The position numbers and the translations under genes were made by a program. From positions 1,020,873 through 1,084,872 of the forward strand of contig NZ_KQ033919.1 of assembly GCF_000969825.1 (NCBI RefSeq): a stretch of DNA of 64,000 bases. The letters are read 5' to 3'. Below are positions 32,586 to 40,426 of the stretch, one piece after another. The first letter of the stretch is position 1; the number at the start of each line of letters is the position of its first letter. Source of the stretch: Parabacteroides gordonii MS-1 = DSM 23371. Lineage in GTDB: Bacteria; Bacteroidota; Bacteroidia; Bacteroidales; Tannerellaceae. The notes below the pieces were generated by a model. It was not told the origin of the DNA and made no database searches. It saw only the letters and a program-made list of their open reading frames with translations.

Positions 32586-35500
32586 CTAATTCATAAGTTT
32601 GAAAACTTCTCCTTTGATCAGTACAAGATAGATGCCTTTCGGAAGATCCGTTTCGGTGACGTGTCCTAAGACGGTCAACGTCTTATGGAGGCGGCCGTCG
32701 AACGTGATGATCCGCGCTACTTCCTTTGTTTCGCAATACAACCTCAACACACCCTCATGGCTCCAAACCCGGAGGGGCATATTGATATTGGCATTCGAAG
32801 TCGGAAGATCAGGCGTGATGCCGGTGATCGAGATCGTCAGGTCACGAGAGACATCCGCAAACGTGTAGCGGCCGTCGGCATCAGGCTGCAACGTCTCGTT
32901 GCCGGCTTTCACTACCGGGGCGGACTGGCTGTATCCGGCATCCAAAGTCAGCGTGAAACTGAAGCTGCTTCCCTCCTCTACCGTATAATCTCCGGCAACC
33001 GGATCAGTCGTAGCACCGACCACAGACGGCAAGGTGATCGTGTAACTGTCCACCGTGGGAGTGGGATCAGGTTCAGGCTCCGCTTTCGATTCTACCGTCA
33101 CCGTGCCGTAAACGCTTAGCGTGGTAGAGACCGCTGTTCCACCGGTTACTTCCCGCTTAATCCGGCAGCGATACTCATAAGTACCGGGAGCGTTCAATGG
33201 CTCGCTGTAACTATTCGTATAAGTAACAGCTTCCGGCTCGGTATCAAGCTTCATTGCTCGCGTAACCACCGGAGTCTGTTCCGGGTAGGCCGTTGGTTCT
33301 CCGATATTCGTCCATGTACCTGCGTTTCCGCGTTGCCATTGGAAAGTGACGGTTGCACCGGCCGGAACGGTTGCTTTCGCACTTAAAAAGGCGGTTTCAC
33401 CTGGTGTGATATTTTTATCTGCATCTTCTTCTTTTAGCACGGAAAGAAGCGGGGTTTCGTCTTCGTCCAGCACTTCCGTGATCAACCCGGTGTTGTCGAT
33501 TAATGTACCGGTGTTGATGACCCTGGCTGTCAATGACACTTCTGCGGCATTATCACCCTTTTCGATGGTCACGTTGCCATTGTTGGTGAGCGTTCCGAGG
33601 TTGTTCGTTCCCGACAATTTGAGGATGACGTTTGCCTCTTCGGTGATGGTCGTTTTGGCCTCGAGGGTTTCGCCGCCTTCGCCCTCCTCTTTCGGTTGGA
33701 CGGTTACGTTACCGATTTCCACGACTGCCGGTTCATTTTCTTCCGAGCCGGGCGCGGAGATTTCCACATTGTCCACGCTTGTGATTTCATCCGATCCTCC
33801 CAATACGGTGGTATCATTTTCGATATACAACGTGTCGAGACGGAACCGGGCAACCAGTTCGATGGATTTTTGTGCCAGAAACTTGTGCTCTTCATTCGCC
33901 TTTATATCTTCCCGCGGAATGGAATCGAGCTTCTCCACCCCCTCTTCCAGTTTCTTCACGACTTCCACGACATCCACCAACGTAGCTCCCTTGCCGGGCT
34001 TAGGCGTAACGTGGAAAGTTCTTGCATTTGTAAAAATGATCGTGGTGTCGGCCTGGAAATCATGTTTTTCCTCCTCATCCTCTTCTCCCGTCAGATAATA
34101 GCCCTCGAATGTGCCGGGGCCTTCTGCTTTCAGGGTGAGGGGAAAATCGATGACGGAGAAGCTATTCTTATAAACCGGACCATTACTTCCTACCTCCCAT
34201 TCTTTCCACTCGATTTCACCTTCAAGCAATGCTGCATTATGGGCAGCCACATTTTCATTTAGGGTAGTTTCGCTAACTTCATCTCCGATGTAACAAGTAC
34301 TGCAATCGACTTTCCCATAATTTCCTCCGATAAAATCATTATCTCTGACTATCTTTACACCTTCTGGGCATGAAGCATTCACAGATCCATTAAAATAACA
34401 ATTCCCTACATATTTGGTCTCATAGGAAGTATTACTACTGTATCCCACAAGCCCACCGATATACCCTTTACGCGGATCTATAGGGTTTGGAAGTTTGTGT
34501 TCATCCAATATTAACCGAACGTTTATGTCAGCATTCACATAACAGTTTTGGACAGATGTAGCATACGAAGCAATCAAACCTCCAATATAATAATCACGTG
34601 ATGCCTTTCCGTCGTAGAGATTAATAGTACTCTGTTCAACACCACAGTTAATCATACAACCATGACAAGATATCGCTAATCCAGCCACAGCTCCACCACC
34701 CCAAGGATAAGCGTCTTCGATATACTCAAATGTACCGGAAACAATCAAATTGTAAACATCACGACAACTATAGAAAAACGCTGCATCTGCTTGCTTTACC
34801 TTCACTCCGTTTATTCTATGTCCTTGCCCGTCAAATGTAACATTCAAATCTAATGGAATCCAATCATAAGAAGACATATCCAAATCTTTAGTAAGTACGA
34901 TGTCCGAGTATGGAGAGATTTCATTATGCCTGCCACCCTCCACAGTCAAATACTCTATTCCATTATAATCATTATCACCGGAAATTCCAACATAACCGCT
35001 AAGAGCAATAGCCATCCAGCATAAGCCGACTTCCGAATTTATTTCATAGCGATAAACAGTAGAATAAGAATAGTCATCATTGCGAATTACCCTGACATCA
35101 CGTCCGTTGGGACCGATATTTGCTTTTTTAGCAGCCTCAAAAATCGCATTCGTGTAAATACCCGCATTCGTTTTGTTCTTCACTTGTACACCATCAACGA
35201 GATAATTAATCTTATTATCTTTCAGTAGAGAAGCTGAAAAAGGTAAATCGGGGCGGAATCTTCTATCCCACGTATAATAGCCAAAACCAGAGGCCAATAC
35301 ATTTTCAGGCACAATCGGATCCGAGATATTAATACTGCGATATTTACCGCCGGATAAAGAGACCACAGCAGTACCTCCAACATTTAACCTATCAATAATA
35401 CCATCCGAGATGTTCAATGTTCCACCTTTTGCATCCACTCCTAGGATATTGCTCCCTCCGGTAATGTTCAATACACCAGTACTCCCTTCAGGCAAATTCA

Positions 35501-36302
35501 ATTGGGACACATTACCGCTGAAATTCATAGTTCCACCATTAATAGAGAAGTTACCAGCAACATCGCCAGGGCCTTCTGTTATAGTGGACATTCCACCCGA
35601 CATAAGCAAAGTAGAGCTAAACATGACCCGTTTTGCGAAAAGTTCACCATTGGTCATTGTTAAATCTTTAATGCTAACATTTTCCAAATTAACAGTTCCT
35701 CCGGCTACGATTACTTTTCCATCAATCTCAAGGTCTTTTACGTTCAAACATCCGCCATTTTTAACATCAAAGAGAACACTATACAAGCTAATCTCTTCTC
35801 CTCCCTCAGAACAGATGGTAACATATCCTTCTATATTTATGTTTGATATATTATAACAGCCTATCGTTTCGCTTATTACACAAACACCATCTTGCAGCGT
35901 AGCGACCTCTATATTATCTGTTCTTTTAAATAGTTGTGCTGCATAATTCAGACCTGCAATCAGAGTTTCATTATCTTTGATAGATTTAGAAATACTGGGA
36001 GATATTGATAATAACCCCTCATCAAATTGGGATGCTTTCACTGTTGTAGTATAAATACCATCTTTAGACAACAATTCACCTGTATACGAATAATAATATT
36101 CAAGCCCTTTGTCCATTTTGTAAACAATAGGAACATCCTCATCGTCTCTATAATCTCCACCTTTCACTTCAATAGTATACCCTATCTCATCACGGGTAAA
36201 AGAAGGGATTTCAACATTCCCCCATGCCCTATCCGGCAAAAGCATCATCGCCCCCATCAGGCAAAGCAGCCAGAGGTGGTATTTCTGTATTATTTGTTTC
36301 AT
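32586..36302 (-). CDS. Large secreted surface protein with GLUG-like repeats and T9SS-type tail
   Basis: The protein has 1238 residues. A signal peptide (cut near ...DRAWGN, about 28) precedes beta-helix-like segments (NINIEGYVTICSEGGEE..., NISGGSNILGVDAKGG; about 120-340). GLUG-like repeats follow (YIGGLIASYATSVQNCYVNAD, YIGGLVGYSSNTS; about 560-650), then an acidic middle, Ig-like FQWQRG and VTVESKAEP stretches. The last about 65 residues (LRVWSHEGVLRLYCETKEVARIITFDG ... LPKGIYLVLIKG) match the Por/type IX C-terminal sorting fold. It is probably exported by T9SS and attached to the surface. It has no TAnnTTTG promoter of its own; transcription likely comes from the invertible promoter via the upstream gene. 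Confidence 0.82.
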   Translation of the reverse strand: MKQIIQKYHLWLLCLMGAMMLLPDRAWGNVEIPSFTRDEIGYTIEVKGGDYRDDEDVPIVYKMDKGLEYYYSYTGELLSKDGIYTTTVKASQFDEGLLSISPSISKSIKDNETLIAGLNYAAQLFKRTDNIEVATLQDGVCVISETIGCYNISNINIEGYVTICSEGGEEISLYSVLFDVKNGGCLNVKDLEIDGKVIVAGGTVNLENVSIKDLTMTNGELFAKRVMFSSTLLMSGGMSTITEGPGDVAGNFSINGGTMNFSGNVSQLNLPEGSTGVLNITGGSNILGVDAKGGTLNISDGIIDRLNVGGTAVVSLSGGKYRSINISDPIVPENVLASGFGYYTWDRRFRPDLPFSASLLKDNKINYLVDGVQVKNKTNAGIYTNAIFEAAKKANIGPNGRDVRVIRNDDYSYSTVYRYEINSEVGLCWMAIALSGYVGISGDNDYNGIEYLTVEGGRHNEISPYSDIVLTKDLDMSSYDWIPLDLNVTFDGQGHRINGVKVKQADAAFFYSCRDVYNLIVSGTFEYIEDAYPWGGGAVAGLAISCHGCMINCGVEQSTINLYDGKASRDYYIGGLIASYATSVQNCYVNADINVRLILDEHKLPNPIDPRKGYIGGLVGYSSNTSYETKYVGNCYFNGSVNASCPEGVKIVRDNDFIGGNYGKVDCSTCYIGDEVSETTLNENVAAHNAALLEGEIEWKEWEVGSNGPVYKNSFSVIDFPLTLKAEGPGTFEGYYLTGEEDEEEKHDFQADTTIIFTNARTFHVTPKPGKGATLVDVVEVVKKLEEGVEKLDSIPREDIKANEEHKFLAQKSIELVARFRLDTLYIENDTTVLGGSDEITSVDNVEISAPGSEENEPAVVEIGNVTVQPKEEGEGGETLEAKTTITEEANVILKLSGTNNLGTLTNNGNVTIEKGDNAAEVSLTARVINTGTLIDNTGLITEVLDEDETPLLSVLKEEDADKNITPGETAFLSAKATVPAGATVTFQWQRGNAGTWTNIGEPTAYPEQTPVVTRAMKLDTEPEAVTYTNSYSEPLNAPGTYEYRCRIKREVTGGTAVSTTLSVYGTVTVESKAEPEPDPTPTVDSYTITLPSVVGATTDPVAGDYTVEEGSSFSFTLTLDAGYSQSAPVVKAGNETLQPDADGRYTFADVSRDLTISITGITPDLPTSNANINMPLRVWSHEGVLRLYCETKEVARIITFDGRLHKTLTVLGHVTETDLPKGIYLVLIKGEVFKLMN

Positions 36303-36382: not shown

Positions 36383-36497
36383 ATACGATTGTCGTATGCG
36401 CTCGTATACGGACATCGTATGTTCCCGTATACGACGGTCGTATGTGAGAGGATACGATCATCGTATACGGGCGCATACGGTGATCGTATAAAAAGTA
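36383..36497. repeat. Tandem array of five 23 bp palindromic units
   Basis: Five units begin at 36383, 36406, 36429, 36452 and 36475, exactly 23 bp apart. Each has the 15-base dyad ATACG-N4-TCGTAT, followed by 8 variable bases. Fixed positions are identical in all five; the central and linker bases differ in each. The array lies between two same-strand genes and ends just before the stop of the upstream gene. In RNA each unit could form a small 5 bp hairpin. No frame through it is supported, as 23 is not a multiple of 3. Confidence 0.92.
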
Positions 36498-37277
36498 TCA
36501 TTCAATTACAGGACGATCGTCCTCGCCAGCATCCCCCACTGTCAGCAGGTAAGGGAAACGGTTACGGCGTACGTCTTTCAACAATTGTTTGGTGTTTCCG
36601 CCATATTGGGAAGCTATTTCCAAATAATATTTACCATCGGCCAATGCCGGGATAATGAAAGAGAAATAAGAAGGATCGTTACGCGAAACGGCTGTCATTG
36701 GAACAGCGGTTTCCGCTTCGGTTTCCGAGTTGACAAAGAAGAAACCGACGGTGTTACCTTCAGCTCCCACGATCTTGACACGCTTGCCTTCACCGTTGAG
36801 GGTGTTGCTCGGGGTGATTTTAGCATTTACAGAGCCGGAGAATACATCAGTCACTTTAGTGATGGTCGGAAGGCCTTCCACTACTTCACCTACGATTACA
36901 TTGATACCTTTCATATCCGTTTTCACTTCCTTAATAGGCGTGCTGCGGAGGGTCACATTATTCTTTGCCGGATCGAATTTGGCATTCGGGCCGATGAAAG
37001 GGCCGTCTATCCCAAGCGAGTTATTTGTCAAGCCGAATTCCACGGTAGAACCTGAGTATAATTCTTCTTTGGCAGTTGCTTTCAGGTCGTTGTGGGCGGC
37101 CAGTAATTCGGATGCAGTGAACTTGCTTTTGCCGTTTGCTGCAATATTACAGAGGTCTTCAATAGAGCGATTTGCCACGTAAGTGACGTTGGCTGTGAAG
37201 TCGTCTTCACGCTCTGTCAGCATGTTAGCTACGAGGGTGGCGACGATGCTGCGTTTTTTGGGTTCATTTAATGCCAT
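36498..37277 (-). CDS. HU-like DNA-binding domain / DUF4469 protein
   Basis: The 259-residue protein starts MALNEPKKRSIVATLVANMLTERE and has an HU/IHF-like N-terminal domain (about 1-125; SIEDLCNIAANGKSKFTASELLAAHNDLKA, GPNAKFDPAKN). A C-terminal DUF4469 Ig-like domain follows (about 140-240; PSNTLNGEGKRVKIVGAEGNTVGFFFVNSETE). Such proteins are common in gut Bacteroidetes and their role is unknown; they lack a signal peptide. ATG 37277 is chosen because the longer frame to 37322 runs through an inverted repeat of the invertible segment. It lies upstream of the surface-protein gene and shares its presumed promoter. Confidence 0.8.
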   Translation of the reverse strand: MALNEPKKRSIVATLVANMLTEREDDFTANVTYVANRSIEDLCNIAANGKSKFTASELLAAHNDLKATAKEELYSGSTVEFGLTNNSLGIDGPFIGPNAKFDPAKNNVTLRSTPIKEVKTDMKGINVIVGEVVEGLPTITKVTDVFSGSVNAKITPSNTLNGEGKRVKIVGAEGNTVGFFFVNSETEAETAVPMTAVSRNDPSYFSFIIPALADGKYYLEIASQYGGNTKQLLKDVRRNRFPYLLTVGDAGEDDRPVIE

Positions 37278-37297: not shown

Positions 37298-37317
37298 AGT
37301 TCTGCATGAACTCTGGT
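37298..37317. repeat. Left 20 bp inverted repeat of invertible segment (IRL)
   Basis: AGTTCTGCATGAACTCTGGT is the exact reverse complement of 37546-37565. Identity stops at both ends of the 20 bases. It lies 20 bases upstream of the HU-like gene start. Confidence 0.92.
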
Positions 37318-37528
37318 ATCAACCATGAAAATTAATCTTTGGAAGTATTAATATCTTTTGATAGTCCCATGAACATGAATAAAGACCAATTCATAGAACT
37401 ATGACAAGGTTTGCCTCGTGATACCATAACAGTACTTTCGACAGGGGAGAAAAACAGATAAATAACTGTTCTTTTTATAGAAACCTTGATTATTAGCTAT
37501 TATAAATGCAGTATTTGTCGATAATTCT

Positions 37529-37536
37529 TATCTTTG
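37529..37536 (+). promoter_or_regulatory. -7 element inside the invertible segment
   Basis: TATCTTTG lies 9 bases from the inner edge of the right repeat. It points away from the HU-like and surface-protein genes in this assembly. Confidence 0.7.
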
Positions 37537-37545
37537 CCCAAAATA

Positions 37546-37565
37546 ACCAGAGTTCATGCAGAACT
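37546..37565. repeat. Right 20 bp inverted repeat of invertible segment (IRR)
   Basis: ACCAGAGTTCATGCAGAACT is the exact reverse complement of 37298-37317. Within it AGTTC-N5-GAACT forms a shorter dyad. Confidence 0.92.
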
Positions 37566-37671: not shown

Positions 37672-40365
37672 CTATCGTCTTCCGGACTTTCTAATTAGTT
37701 CCGCAATTTTGTTGTTCAGGCTGTCTGCCTCGATCAGTTTCTCCAAAGGCATATGCATCCGGTAACGCCAGTAATGATTGGGGATAGCCGGGATGTTGAT
37801 CCGTTCGGACTCGATATCTTTTCTCTTTACCGCATCATCGATAGCAAACCAGTCCTGTATCGGAATAATGGTCAGCATGGAATTGGTAGCCAGATGATTC
37901 GTGACGATCTGGGTAGCTATATCTTCCGTACATTCTTCCGGTGCCTGTCCTTCGCGCAACAATACATTATTATAATAACGCTGTATCTTCTCACGGTCTT
38001 CCTTCCACCAATTGCGGAGCGGAGTCATATCGTGTGTCGATGTCGTACAAACCGAATGGTAGGGCAGGTTGAACATATCCGTAAACTCCCGCTGGGGGGT
38101 CTTCGGCATCCGCTCGATCTCCAGGCTAAGTATCTGAAGTTTATTCATAACATCGGGCACTGATTCGGGGATCATTCCCAAGTCTTCCCCGCATACCAGC
38201 ATATTGGTACTTGCCACCAAAGGCGTCAGACGTTTAAATGCCTGCGCTTTCCAGAAGTCATTATGACGATGATAGAAGAATTCCCAATATAATTGATCGA
38301 ATGCATATCTGTCGGATGTACTCAGTTCACTGTACATATAGGACTGGCTGGCCGAAATACGGGGATGGAATTTATCCTTTTCCTGCGGGTCACGAAGGAA
38401 TAAAACCTCATTAGCAATAGAGAACAGTCCTTCCTTTATCTGCAGAGAGGCTTCATCGGTCTTTCCGGCAAACAAGGCTTCGATCTTCCGCTGCGTATCA
38501 CAGAATGATTTCAGCACAAAATGATTGGAAGATGATTGTGCCAAATAAGTTCCTACGACTTCTTCCGACAGGGTACCGAATAATTCCGGCAGGAATTTAT
38601 GGTTGATATGCGGAGTCGTAAAGCGGGCTTCATTGAAAGTAAAACCATATTGCTCTATCTCCTCTTTTGTCAGGGGAAGCGCCGGATTGAAATGACCGCA
38701 AAGTCCCTGGACATAATCCTGCGGCACTTCCCAGATACGGAAGAAGCCTAAGATGTGGTCGATACGGAAACTATCGAAGTAATCGCTCATCTTGCGGAAA
38801 CGCCTCTTCCACCAGGAGTAATTATCTTTCTCCATCACCTCCCAGTTGTAGGTCGGGAACATCCAGTTCTGACCGTTCACCGAGAAATCATCGGGGGGAG
38901 CTCCTGCCTGACCGTTCATATTGAAGTATTGCGGTTCTATCCAGGCATCAATACTGGTGCGGTTCACACCGATCGGGAGATCACCTTTCAGGACAATGCC
39001 ATTCTTACGTGCATAGTCGGATACTGACTTGAATTGTGTATGCAGGATATACTGCAGGAAATAATAGAAAGATATTTCCGGATAAGCTCCGTTGTCTTCC
39101 GAACATAGTTCACGTATCTGCGATTTATTATAGGTCGCATTATTTCCCCAACAGGTAAAGTCGGATGTTTTATATTTATCACGAAGATAGCTGTAAGCGG
39201 CATAAGGGACTAACCAGGACTGGCTTTGAGCAAAGAACTCCTGATATTCCGGACTGGACAGGATAGCGGAACCTTCCTGGCTGAAAAATTCCCGGCAATA
39301 AGCCAGTTTATATTTTACCGCTTCCTCGTAGTCGACAGCATCTTTCGCATTCAACTCTTCCTGCTTTGCCTTGTAAAAGGCAGTCCTTCCCGCATCTTTC
39401 AGCTCTCCCATCAACGGCAAGCTGATATACATCGGATGGAGTGCATAAATAGAAATGGCACTGTATGGATAAGAGTCTCCTTTCGTATGGCTCATCGTCG
39501 TATCATTCATAGGCAAGACTTGTATGATACGCTGGCGGGTTTTCTTTGCCCAGTCGACCAGCATACGGAGATCGCCAAGATCACCTACCCCGAACCCTTG
39601 CTCGGAGCGGAGAGAGAATACCGGTATTACGGTTCCCGCACATCTCCATAAAGGAAGGTTGTCGCGGAAATAGAGTCCGGATACAGTAACTGTTTCTCCA
39701 AAATCCTGCGGGGGAAGTTCGAGCTTTCTGTTTTCATCTTCTTCCCAGTATAACGGCTGATGTTTGTCGTTATCGTAGACCAGGAATTTGTATTCCAACG
39801 GATAGACTATATCATTTGCATCCAGGTCGATATGCCAGTCAGGGAAGGTGTCGCAACTGAGGATCAGCGCTTTGTCAGGATGCCAGTTTCCCAGACACTC
39901 CTGATTACCGGTGATGGCAACGCTTTGATTCTTTTCCACCCGGGGAGCCGATATCTTAATCGTCAGCCTCTTCCCGCTTTTGACCACCCGTTCATAGGTG
40001 TTACAGGGATGAGCAAACAGGCTTTTCGTGAAAGCTGAAGAGTAGAAAGCCAGATTAGCCGGACGTATCTGCCAGTAGTCATACAAGGTATAATGATTGG
40101 CATGTCCTTCAAATACTATCTGATGGTTTTTCTCCCATTCTTCAAATACCTGCTTGTCATTTATACTTAAAAAGTAACGATATTCTATAGTCTGTTGAGG
40201 CGATGTAAGTTCCAGATCCAGCTCAAGCTGCCAGTTTCCATCCCCTTTGTAGTTCATTTCTTTAGCCAAAGCGGGCTCCCATGAGCCAAGCTCCGGAATA
40301 GATCCTACTACACATAACTTCTGCCCCCAAACGGTATGGAAGTTTATATTAAAGGTGACTTTCAT
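37672..40365 (-). CDS. malQ: 4-alpha-glucanotransferase (amylomaltase, GH77) with N-terminal starch-binding domains
   Basis: The protein has 897 residues. Two CBM20-type starch-binding modules come first (about 1-110: MKVTFNINFHTVWGQKLCVVGSIPELGSWEP-type start; about 120-250: ...VAITGNQECLGNWHPDKAL). The GH77 catalytic domain (about 270-880) follows, with RSEQGFGVGDLGDL, RIDHILGFFRIWEVP (nucleophile Asp), ANEVLFLRDP, CGEDLGMIPESV (acid/base Glu) and TSTHDMTPLRNWW. It transfers maltooligosaccharide chains in starch or glycogen metabolism. ATG 40365 is preferred to the frame extension to 40425, which runs through the terminator of nrdJ. Confidence 0.92.
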   Translation of the reverse strand: MKVTFNINFHTVWGQKLCVVGSIPELGSWEPALAKEMNYKGDGNWQLELDLELTSPQQTIEYRYFLSINDKQVFEEWEKNHQIVFEGHANHYTLYDYWQIRPANLAFYSSAFTKSLFAHPCNTYERVVKSGKRLTIKISAPRVEKNQSVAITGNQECLGNWHPDKALILSCDTFPDWHIDLDANDIVYPLEYKFLVYDNDKHQPLYWEEDENRKLELPPQDFGETVTVSGLYFRDNLPLWRCAGTVIPVFSLRSEQGFGVGDLGDLRMLVDWAKKTRQRIIQVLPMNDTTMSHTKGDSYPYSAISIYALHPMYISLPLMGELKDAGRTAFYKAKQEELNAKDAVDYEEAVKYKLAYCREFFSQEGSAILSSPEYQEFFAQSQSWLVPYAAYSYLRDKYKTSDFTCWGNNATYNKSQIRELCSEDNGAYPEISFYYFLQYILHTQFKSVSDYARKNGIVLKGDLPIGVNRTSIDAWIEPQYFNMNGQAGAPPDDFSVNGQNWMFPTYNWEVMEKDNYSWWKRRFRKMSDYFDSFRIDHILGFFRIWEVPQDYVQGLCGHFNPALPLTKEEIEQYGFTFNEARFTTPHINHKFLPELFGTLSEEVVGTYLAQSSSNHFVLKSFCDTQRKIEALFAGKTDEASLQIKEGLFSIANEVLFLRDPQEKDKFHPRISASQSYMYSELSTSDRYAFDQLYWEFFYHRHNDFWKAQAFKRLTPLVASTNMLVCGEDLGMIPESVPDVMNKLQILSLEIERMPKTPQREFTDMFNLPYHSVCTTSTHDMTPLRNWWKEDREKIQRYYNNVLLREGQAPEECTEDIATQIVTNHLATNSMLTIIPIQDWFAIDDAVKRKDIESERINIPAIPNHYWRYRMHMPLEKLIEADSLNNKIAELIRKSGRR

Positions 40366-40371
40366 GTGTAT

Positions 40372-40379
40372 CAAATTTA
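40372..40379 (-). promoter_or_regulatory. Possible -7 element very close to the malQ start
   Basis: TAAATTTG on the minus strand ends 6 bases before ATG 40365. If used, the transcript would be nearly leaderless. It lies just downstream of the nrdJ terminator. Confidence 0.35.
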
Positions 40380-40395
40380 GTTCCAGCCACGAAGA

Positions 40396-40426
40396 TATAA
40401 AAAATGCGGAAATTTCTCTCCGCATT
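40396..40426 (-). terminator. Intrinsic terminator of nrdJ
   Basis: Arms AATGCGGA (40403-40410) and TCCGCATT (40419-40426) are followed on the minus strand by a T-rich run. It is placed 27 bases after the nrdJ stop. Confidence 0.8.

Follow-up and report, generated by a model that had tools for sequence, protein, structure and literature searches.

A predicted invertible promoter ahead of an HU-like/surface-protein operon in Parabacteroides gordonii belongs to a dispersed class of paired AGTTC-N5-GAACT sites

The window analyzed here is a 64,000-nucleotide stretch of the 6.79-Mb P. gordonii genome (G000:C1:1020873-1084872). Its central part carries an HU-like gene followed by a gene for a large surface protein, with a short segment bounded by inverted repeats upstream of both. 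The features are as follows.

37298..37565, no strand: predicted invertible segment, 268 bp, OFF-facing for the HU-like gene
37298..37312, plus strand: putative left recombination-site core AGTTC-TGCAT-GAACT on the gene side; the arm match extends to 37317
37551..37565, minus strand: putative right recombination-site core, the same 15 bp inverted; the arm is 37546-37565
37529..37536, plus strand: -7 element TATCTTTG of a predicted Bacteroides-type promoter, directed away from the HU-like gene
37327..37334, minus strand: one-letter-off -7 element TAATTTTC, directed toward the HU-like gene in the current orientation
36498..37277, minus strand: HU-like gene, 259 aa, PF14848 (HU-DNA_bdg) and PF14734 (DUF4469, Ig-like)
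36501..36527, minus strand: codons for the C-terminal peptide GEDDRPVIE
36383..36489, minus strand: dyad array of five ATACG-N5-CGTAT units with 8-bp spacing (23-bp period), between the HU-like and surface-protein genes
32586..36302, minus strand: surface-protein gene, 1238 aa, N-terminal hydrophobic leader (judged by eye)
37672..40425, minus strand: 4-alpha-glucanotransferase gene (GH77), 3' end toward the segment

The first-pass annotation had described 37298-37565 as an invertible promoter captured in the OFF orientation, and the layout that it reported is borne out. The 20-nt arms (37298-37317 and 37546-37565) are 100% complementary with 228 nt between them, and a check of both strands between the cores found a single TAnnTTTG, the Bacteroides -7 consensus according to an excerpt of PMC4747536. 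This element, TATCTTTG at 37529-37536, lies on the plus strand and points away from the minus-strand genes, so that the predicted promoter currently points, antisense, at the 3' end of the converging GH77 gene. Inversion was computed to place it at 37327-37334, about 50 bases upstream of the ATG of the HU-like gene (37277), as the annotation had held. Its further statement that the segment has no minus-strand -7 element holds for perfect TAnnTTTG but calls for a caveat: at 37327-37334, the very position that the -7 would take after inversion, the minus strand carries the one-letter-off TAATTTTC, and both orthologues (genomes G012 and G037, from two related species) retain this near match. An Rfam search of the window returned no match.

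The repeats have relatives throughout the genome. The window 20-mer occurs nine times with up to three mismatches, compared with no occurrence of its reversed control. With the 15-bp dyad AGTTC-N5-GAACT as the working unit, G000 contains 54 exact copies versus 2 for the reversed control, and the corresponding counts are 45 versus 2 in G012 and 46 versus 2 in G037. A smaller excess is found in some other genomes of the genus (21 versus 2 in G021, 14 versus 2 in G002), and in many others the count is near or below that of the control. When one-mismatch partners are counted, 48 of the 54 exact cores belong to pairs or to a multi-site group and six are isolated.

In the DNA around listed sites we counted 28 close inverted pairs and no direct one, under a filter that admits pairs whose two 15-mers differ at no more than one position and together show no more than two departures from the fixed letters. 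A check free of this filter gave the same picture. Among exact cores less than 1.5 kb apart in G000, 19 of 20 neighbours have reverse-complementary N5 spacers, and the lone non-matching pair consists of a contig-end site adjoining an isolated site; in G037, 13 of 14 neighbouring exact cores, counted from the list, match in the same way. Across the 19 loci, by contrast, only 3 of 171 spacer comparisons match. At most loci the likeness of the arms is limited to the 15-bp core, and the window arms match over 20 nt. A recombinase relying on a matched crossover region would be expected to maintain just this combination, with spacers alike inside a pair and unlike from one locus to the next.

The spacers also change together. 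We compared orthologous loci of G000 and G037 for which both 250-bp flanks could be aligned, under a filter that did not exclude loci with a one-letter change confined to one arm. The spacer differs at four of these ten loci, and both arms are changed in all four: the window (TGCAT to TGTAT), L079, L082 and L088.

Several loci depart from the simple pair. The spacer TTTTA/TAAAA is shared among C2:20, C2:6629, C3:81/503/7875 and C1:3707341/3707718, and contigs C2 and C3 start 19 and 80 bases, respectively, before sites that share their spacer with C1:3707341. These contig starts might be alternative junctions that broke the assembly, as if loci with a shared spacer recombine with one another, although another cause is possible and the observation is suggestive only. 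At L031 (10461-11657; G000 C1:1996460-1997656), a 284-aa open frame lies inside the 1.2-kb segment between sites of this class, and inversion there would flip a piece of a gene and not a promoter alone. Three AGTTC-like sites (AGTTCTGCAAAGACT) are spread across 7.5 kb at L033 (11049-18589; G000 C4:73048-80588), possibly a shufflon.

Two groups of genes lie next to the paired sites. Seven target proteins were scanned, of which four are SusC-type, two SusD-type and one a response regulator. The second group consists of HU/DUF4469 genes, which as a rule precede the gene of a large surface protein, and the segment layout of the window is repeated at nine further HU/DUF4469 loci in G000. In the three site-rich genomes (G000, G012 and G037) we found 43 HU/DUF4469 genes and examined 29 for segments, the G037 stretches having been chosen mostly because they contain sites. 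An upstream segment is present at 17 of the 29 (10 in G000, 2 in G012, 5 in G037). It lies no more than 20 bp from the chosen gene start at 13 loci and 154-333 bp away at L086, L087 and L167, and it overlaps the start at L068.

In all 17 HU/DUF4469 segments, which are not independent loci, a -7 element lies 14-19 bp from the far core and is directed away from the gene; L087 has an additional toward-gene match 161 bp inside the segment. A perfect TAnnTTTG at this distance from the far core occurs in 16 of 16 HU-linked segments versus 5 of 742 background windows. The away-facing promoter does not always face an empty or antisense region. At six of nine HU-linked loci (L093, L030, L028, L029, L086 and L090) it faces a sense neighbour 110-197 bp off, and at these six, the orientation that is OFF for the HU gene may switch the neighbour ON. 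No sense neighbour is faced at the window, L068 or L087. Among the 19 pairs not linked to HU genes, eight could be read clearly, with three in the ON layout (including L076, which has a second motif) and five in the OFF layout. Both ON and OFF layouts are thus represented in the class.

The annotation had called the locus phase variable and silent in the sequenced majority. Its away-facing orientation recurs at every HU-linked segment examined (17/17), and a flipped copy was not encountered: of the ten orthologous loci of G000 and G037, nine have the same orientation, one is undecidable and none is flipped. The window locus also has the G000 orientation in G012, where one flank is weakly aligned, and the flipped window junction is absent from IMG/VR, which is a weak test. 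The promoter end is the most conserved block of the segment in the comparison with G037 (27 and 26 of 30 letters, versus 17-25 of 30 in the six blocks preceding it), which indicates that the promoter is maintained although it is directed away from the operon. Uniform OFF orientation at the HU loci has precedent. An excerpt of PMC3090145 states that the large-capsule promoter of B. fragilis is OFF in all three genome sequences, and an excerpt of PMC11892184 describes a near-universal preference for one orientation in some invertons.

The HU-like protein itself scores above the cut-offs of PF14848 and PF14734. Its predicted model (mean pLDDT 84) matches PDB 4FMR (BVU_2165) with an E-value of 6e-19 and a TM-score of 0.48 over the whole chain, a low value that is probably due to differing placement of the two domains in the model. 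In its domains and 4FMR-like predicted fold it resembles the HU-HIG and HU-DNA_bdg-DUF4469 proteins (PF18291, PF14848, PF14734), and DNA binding is predicted. The nearest named relative that we found is an HU-like protein of Parabacteroides goldsteinii, 94% identical, in a search that may omit very near genomes. Unlike known HU-DNA_bdg-DUF4469 proteins, the window protein ends in a lineage-specific C-terminal peptide and its gene is followed by the 23-bp dyad array.

The peptide, GEDDRPVIE, follows a Gly-rich linker; the Pfam name of PF18291 mentions a glycine-rich motif, and a Gly-rich tail as such is therefore already known. All nine HU/DUF4469 proteins picked by their position beside a pair, and not by their tail, end in GEDDRPVIE, including three that share no more than 25-30% identity with the window protein. 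Searched as a degenerate DNA pattern, the peptide matches 48 times in G000, 16 times in G012 and 15 times in G037, with no match in the other 35 genomes of the genus and none for reversed controls. At 47 of the 48 G000 matches a stop codon follows directly. The 48 coding stretches comprise 45 different DNA sequences, counted for the exact peptide and hence missing variants; the codons drift and the peptide stays constant. The exact peptide is present in 17 of the 21 DUF4469 genes of G000, and it is also carried by HU-HIG proteins (four of four scanned) and by DUF6261 proteins, which belong to a different Pfam family (three scanned). We take GEDDRPVIE to be reminiscent of the acidic C-terminal tip of SSB or of a cargo-loading peptide. 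The tag peptide also closes an open frame of just 36 residues at G000 C1:1328618 (L169), which might be a tag on its own or the tail of a disrupted gene.

Three other genomes have HU-HIG tails of their own. In G004, DSESPDEI or a near variant ends 8 of the 10 proteins read (of 23 matches), and EDDRPGEL or TDDRPGEL ends 3 of 10 read (of 14) in G011 and likewise 3 of 10 (of 14) in G014. The remaining reads, which have no such tail, are other subtypes or wrong-strand open frames. Further tails occur among the best 120 of 242 database relatives.

The gap between the HU-like and surface-protein genes folds as RNA to -66 kcal/mol (z -6.6). Among tagged genes, 15 of 48 are followed by a repeated stem word (p<=0.01, 200 shuffles), and these include nine of the ten G000 genes with an invertible segment, L068 being the exception. 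Full-geometry arrays (5-N5-5-N8) use a distinct word at each locus, such as TGACG x4, ATAGG x4 and TTCGA x6. Between units, picked by their stem word, the stems agree at 84-100% and the loops and spacers at 23-50%. A grid of loops of 3-8 and periods of 16-31 was scanned over about 1.28 Mb of G000, a sample enriched for these loci in which overlaps are counted twice, and at least three units of the same word occur only at period 23, apart from two matches at 22. Of the five loop-5 arrays in the scanned part of G000, four directly follow an HU/DUF4469 gene and one (C4:68502) lies between convergent genes. All five arrays in the analyzed G037 and G012 stretches, which were chosen around such loci or sites, follow HU/DUF4469 genes. 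In the two orthologues, 117 and 118 of 122 positions of the window array are identical, as are 707 and 705 of 780 in the HU gene. A role for the HU protein in reading the array by sequence is disfavored, since stem words differ between arrays that follow HU proteins of 84-90% identity.

The surface protein is 56% identical to its G037 counterpart over 1030 columns, with residues 30-249 unaligned, and 49% identical to that of G012 over 1338 columns. Together with six paralogues it shares the last ~170 aa (38-42% identity between the window protein and the others); ahead of this region the paralogues diverge more, and the remainder changes fast. GLUG and InlB-like repeats occur in several of them. 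The label T9SS-type, given to the 1238-aa protein in the first-pass annotation, found no support: we rejected the protein as T9SS cargo since it matches no sorting domain, neither TIGR04183 at E<=1 nor PF18962 at E<=0.1. Among the six paralogues, L028 passes the TIGR04183 cut-off (23.6 versus 23 bits), four fall below it and L090 has no match.

The suggestion that the gene pair and array form a unit not described before is only partly upheld. In Treponema denticola, an excerpt of PMC12724145 reports for a trtA mutant a log2 change of -5.18 for TDE_2259 (HU/DUF4469) and of -5.69 for TDE_2258 (surface antigen), which have neighbouring locus numbers. As both fall strongly, the pairing of an HU/DUF4469 gene with a surface antigen recurs outside this lineage. 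The combination of invertible segment, dyad array and peptide tail was not described in the literature searched, nor were the C-terminal tail or the 23-bp array individually, and a search on DUF4469, the tail and the array yielded nothing relevant besides that report.

The recombinase gene, for which the annotation had suggested a search, could not be singled out: of 66 PF00589 matches in G000, none of the 16 short ones inspected could be assigned to these sites, and the 55 whose distance was measured are all at least 17 kb away from the 28 pairs. A PF00589 gene at C4:86619 lies about 6 kb past the L033 sites, a C4 group that is not among the 28 pairs. Of these 16 short genes, twelve are beside CTTATT-N5-AATAAG repeats, one is beside another repeat and three have none. 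The twelve were set aside as candidates for a master enzyme because they flank repeats of this other kind. The CTTATT-N5-AATAAG repeats constitute a second class of inversion sites with the same five-base spacer geometry, bounding segments of 374-506 bp at L098-L102, L104-L108, L110 and L111, each beside a short tyrosine recombinase gene (12 in all), and are apparently local systems. The three repeat-free genes are an XerC-like and an XerD-like gene, named by length and score, and C1:56853. The last was rejected as the master recombinase, since its best matches in the site-rich G012 and G037 are only 36% identical; in the 38 genomes searched, close relatives occur only in G021 (73%, 75% and 56%).

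The closest known system appears to be that of the global tyrosine invertase Tsr0667 of Bacteroides fragilis, for which Nakayama-Imaohji reportedly gave the inverted-repeat consensus AGTYYYN4GDACT in 2009. Of 56 sites, 54 fit this consensus in one direction or both, the two window sites among them. The two systems have in common dispersed inverted repeats of one class, a promoter between them and SusC/SusD targets. They differ in that at least ten HU/DUF4469 loci also bear the segment here and that the spacers are near-private pair labels. The Mpi-controlled promoters precede capsule genes and have other repeats. According to excerpts of PMC4747536, Tsr0667 controls the inversion of three SusC/SusD clusters and nine further regions, and Mpi is a single serine recombinase of B. 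fragilis that flips many dispersed promoters for surface structures, a likeness to the class proposed here. We set aside a serine-invertase (Mpi) reading of the window sites, as five matched spacer bases would fit a tyrosine recombinase better.

Invertible promoters ahead of surface-protein operons are found elsewhere in the Bacteroidales, as in the phase-variable glycoproteins of Parabacteroides distasonis and the S-layer operons of B. thetaiotaomicron. The latter differ in having another repeat (CCGTTACCTABVRAGTAAC) and an adjoining site-specific integrase gene, and an excerpt of PMC12118408 mentions no HU/DUF4469 gene with them. By analogy, the AGTTC class would work like the Tsr0667 system and additionally serve HU-like/surface-protein operons.

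We consider it likely that 37298-37565 is a phase-variable promoter, probably flipped by a trans-acting tyrosine recombinase between identical 15-bp AGTTC-N5-GAACT sites, with the -7 element currently facing away from the HU-like and surface-protein genes. The predicted promoter inversion has good indirect support from the genome-wide paired sites, the joint spacer change in both arms and the conserved promoter, all of them features of sequence. The main competing view accepts the promoter and questions the silence of the present orientation: the HU-like gene would be transcribed from a weaker promoter, and the segment would set level or conditions rather than ON and OFF. In its favor, TAATTTTC lies 14 bp from the gene-side core in the window and two orthologues, mirroring the strong -7 at the far end. 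However, of the other 13 segments (of 16) L244 alone shows a one-letter-off match at 14-19 bp from the gene-side core, such matches are frequent in the background (192 of 742 windows), and all 17 segments have their perfect element at the far end, the additional toward-gene match of L087 lying 161 bp inside. We regard this reading as unlikely.

A slimmer prospect is a relic or almost immobile segment that would have inverted in the past, with HU-like operons now held OFF or inversion too rare to matter. The 17 away-facing HU-like segments in three genomes and the absence of a flipped copy among the ten orthologous loci are what this view predicts. Yet both arms' spacers still change jointly, the promoter is conserved, and the operon is maintained, as seen in the 705-707 of 780 identical positions of the HU gene and the 117-118 of 122 of the array. 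A precedent for uniform orientation comes from B. fragilis, whose large-capsule promoter is OFF in three sequenced genomes in the excerpt of PMC3090145. It is highly improbable that the dyads are paired operators of a dimeric regulator that works with no DNA inversion. Each site is itself a dyad (AGTTC/GAACT), a common property of operators, and no inversion was seen among the orthologous loci compared, but a regulator needs one common sequence, and N5 matches within pairs (19/20) and rarely between loci (3/171). The 28 inverted and 0 direct close pairs (differing by at most one letter) and the presence of both ON and OFF layouts in the class also speak against operators.

If the segment is a phase-variable promoter, inversion would place the -7 element some 50 bp upstream of the HU-like start, and the HU-like gene, dyad array and surface protein would be expressed in the ON state as one transcript. 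The five-base spacer would have to match between partners, so each locus would be kept from recombining with most others. The enzyme would act like Tsr0667 of B. fragilis. ON cells are predicted to be rare in culture and to have an antigenically distinct surface. More tentatively, the locus could be a two-layer switch in which the inverting promoter controls an HU-like protein with a lineage-specific address peptide, and the protein or a peptide-reading partner acts on its own 23-bp array and thereby sets the hypervariable surface protein; the peptide might then be a general tag on dozens of proteins from at least two unrelated families.

The predicted switch would extend the known kind of global inversion system in Bacteroides to a family of HU-like/surface-protein operons. 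It points to a way in which numerous switches served by a single enzyme class could coexist without scrambling the genome, namely a private five-base label for each pair. It also exposes two testable puzzles: a nine-residue peptide that ends 47 open frames of one genome, and an array of fixed geometry with locus-specific letters.
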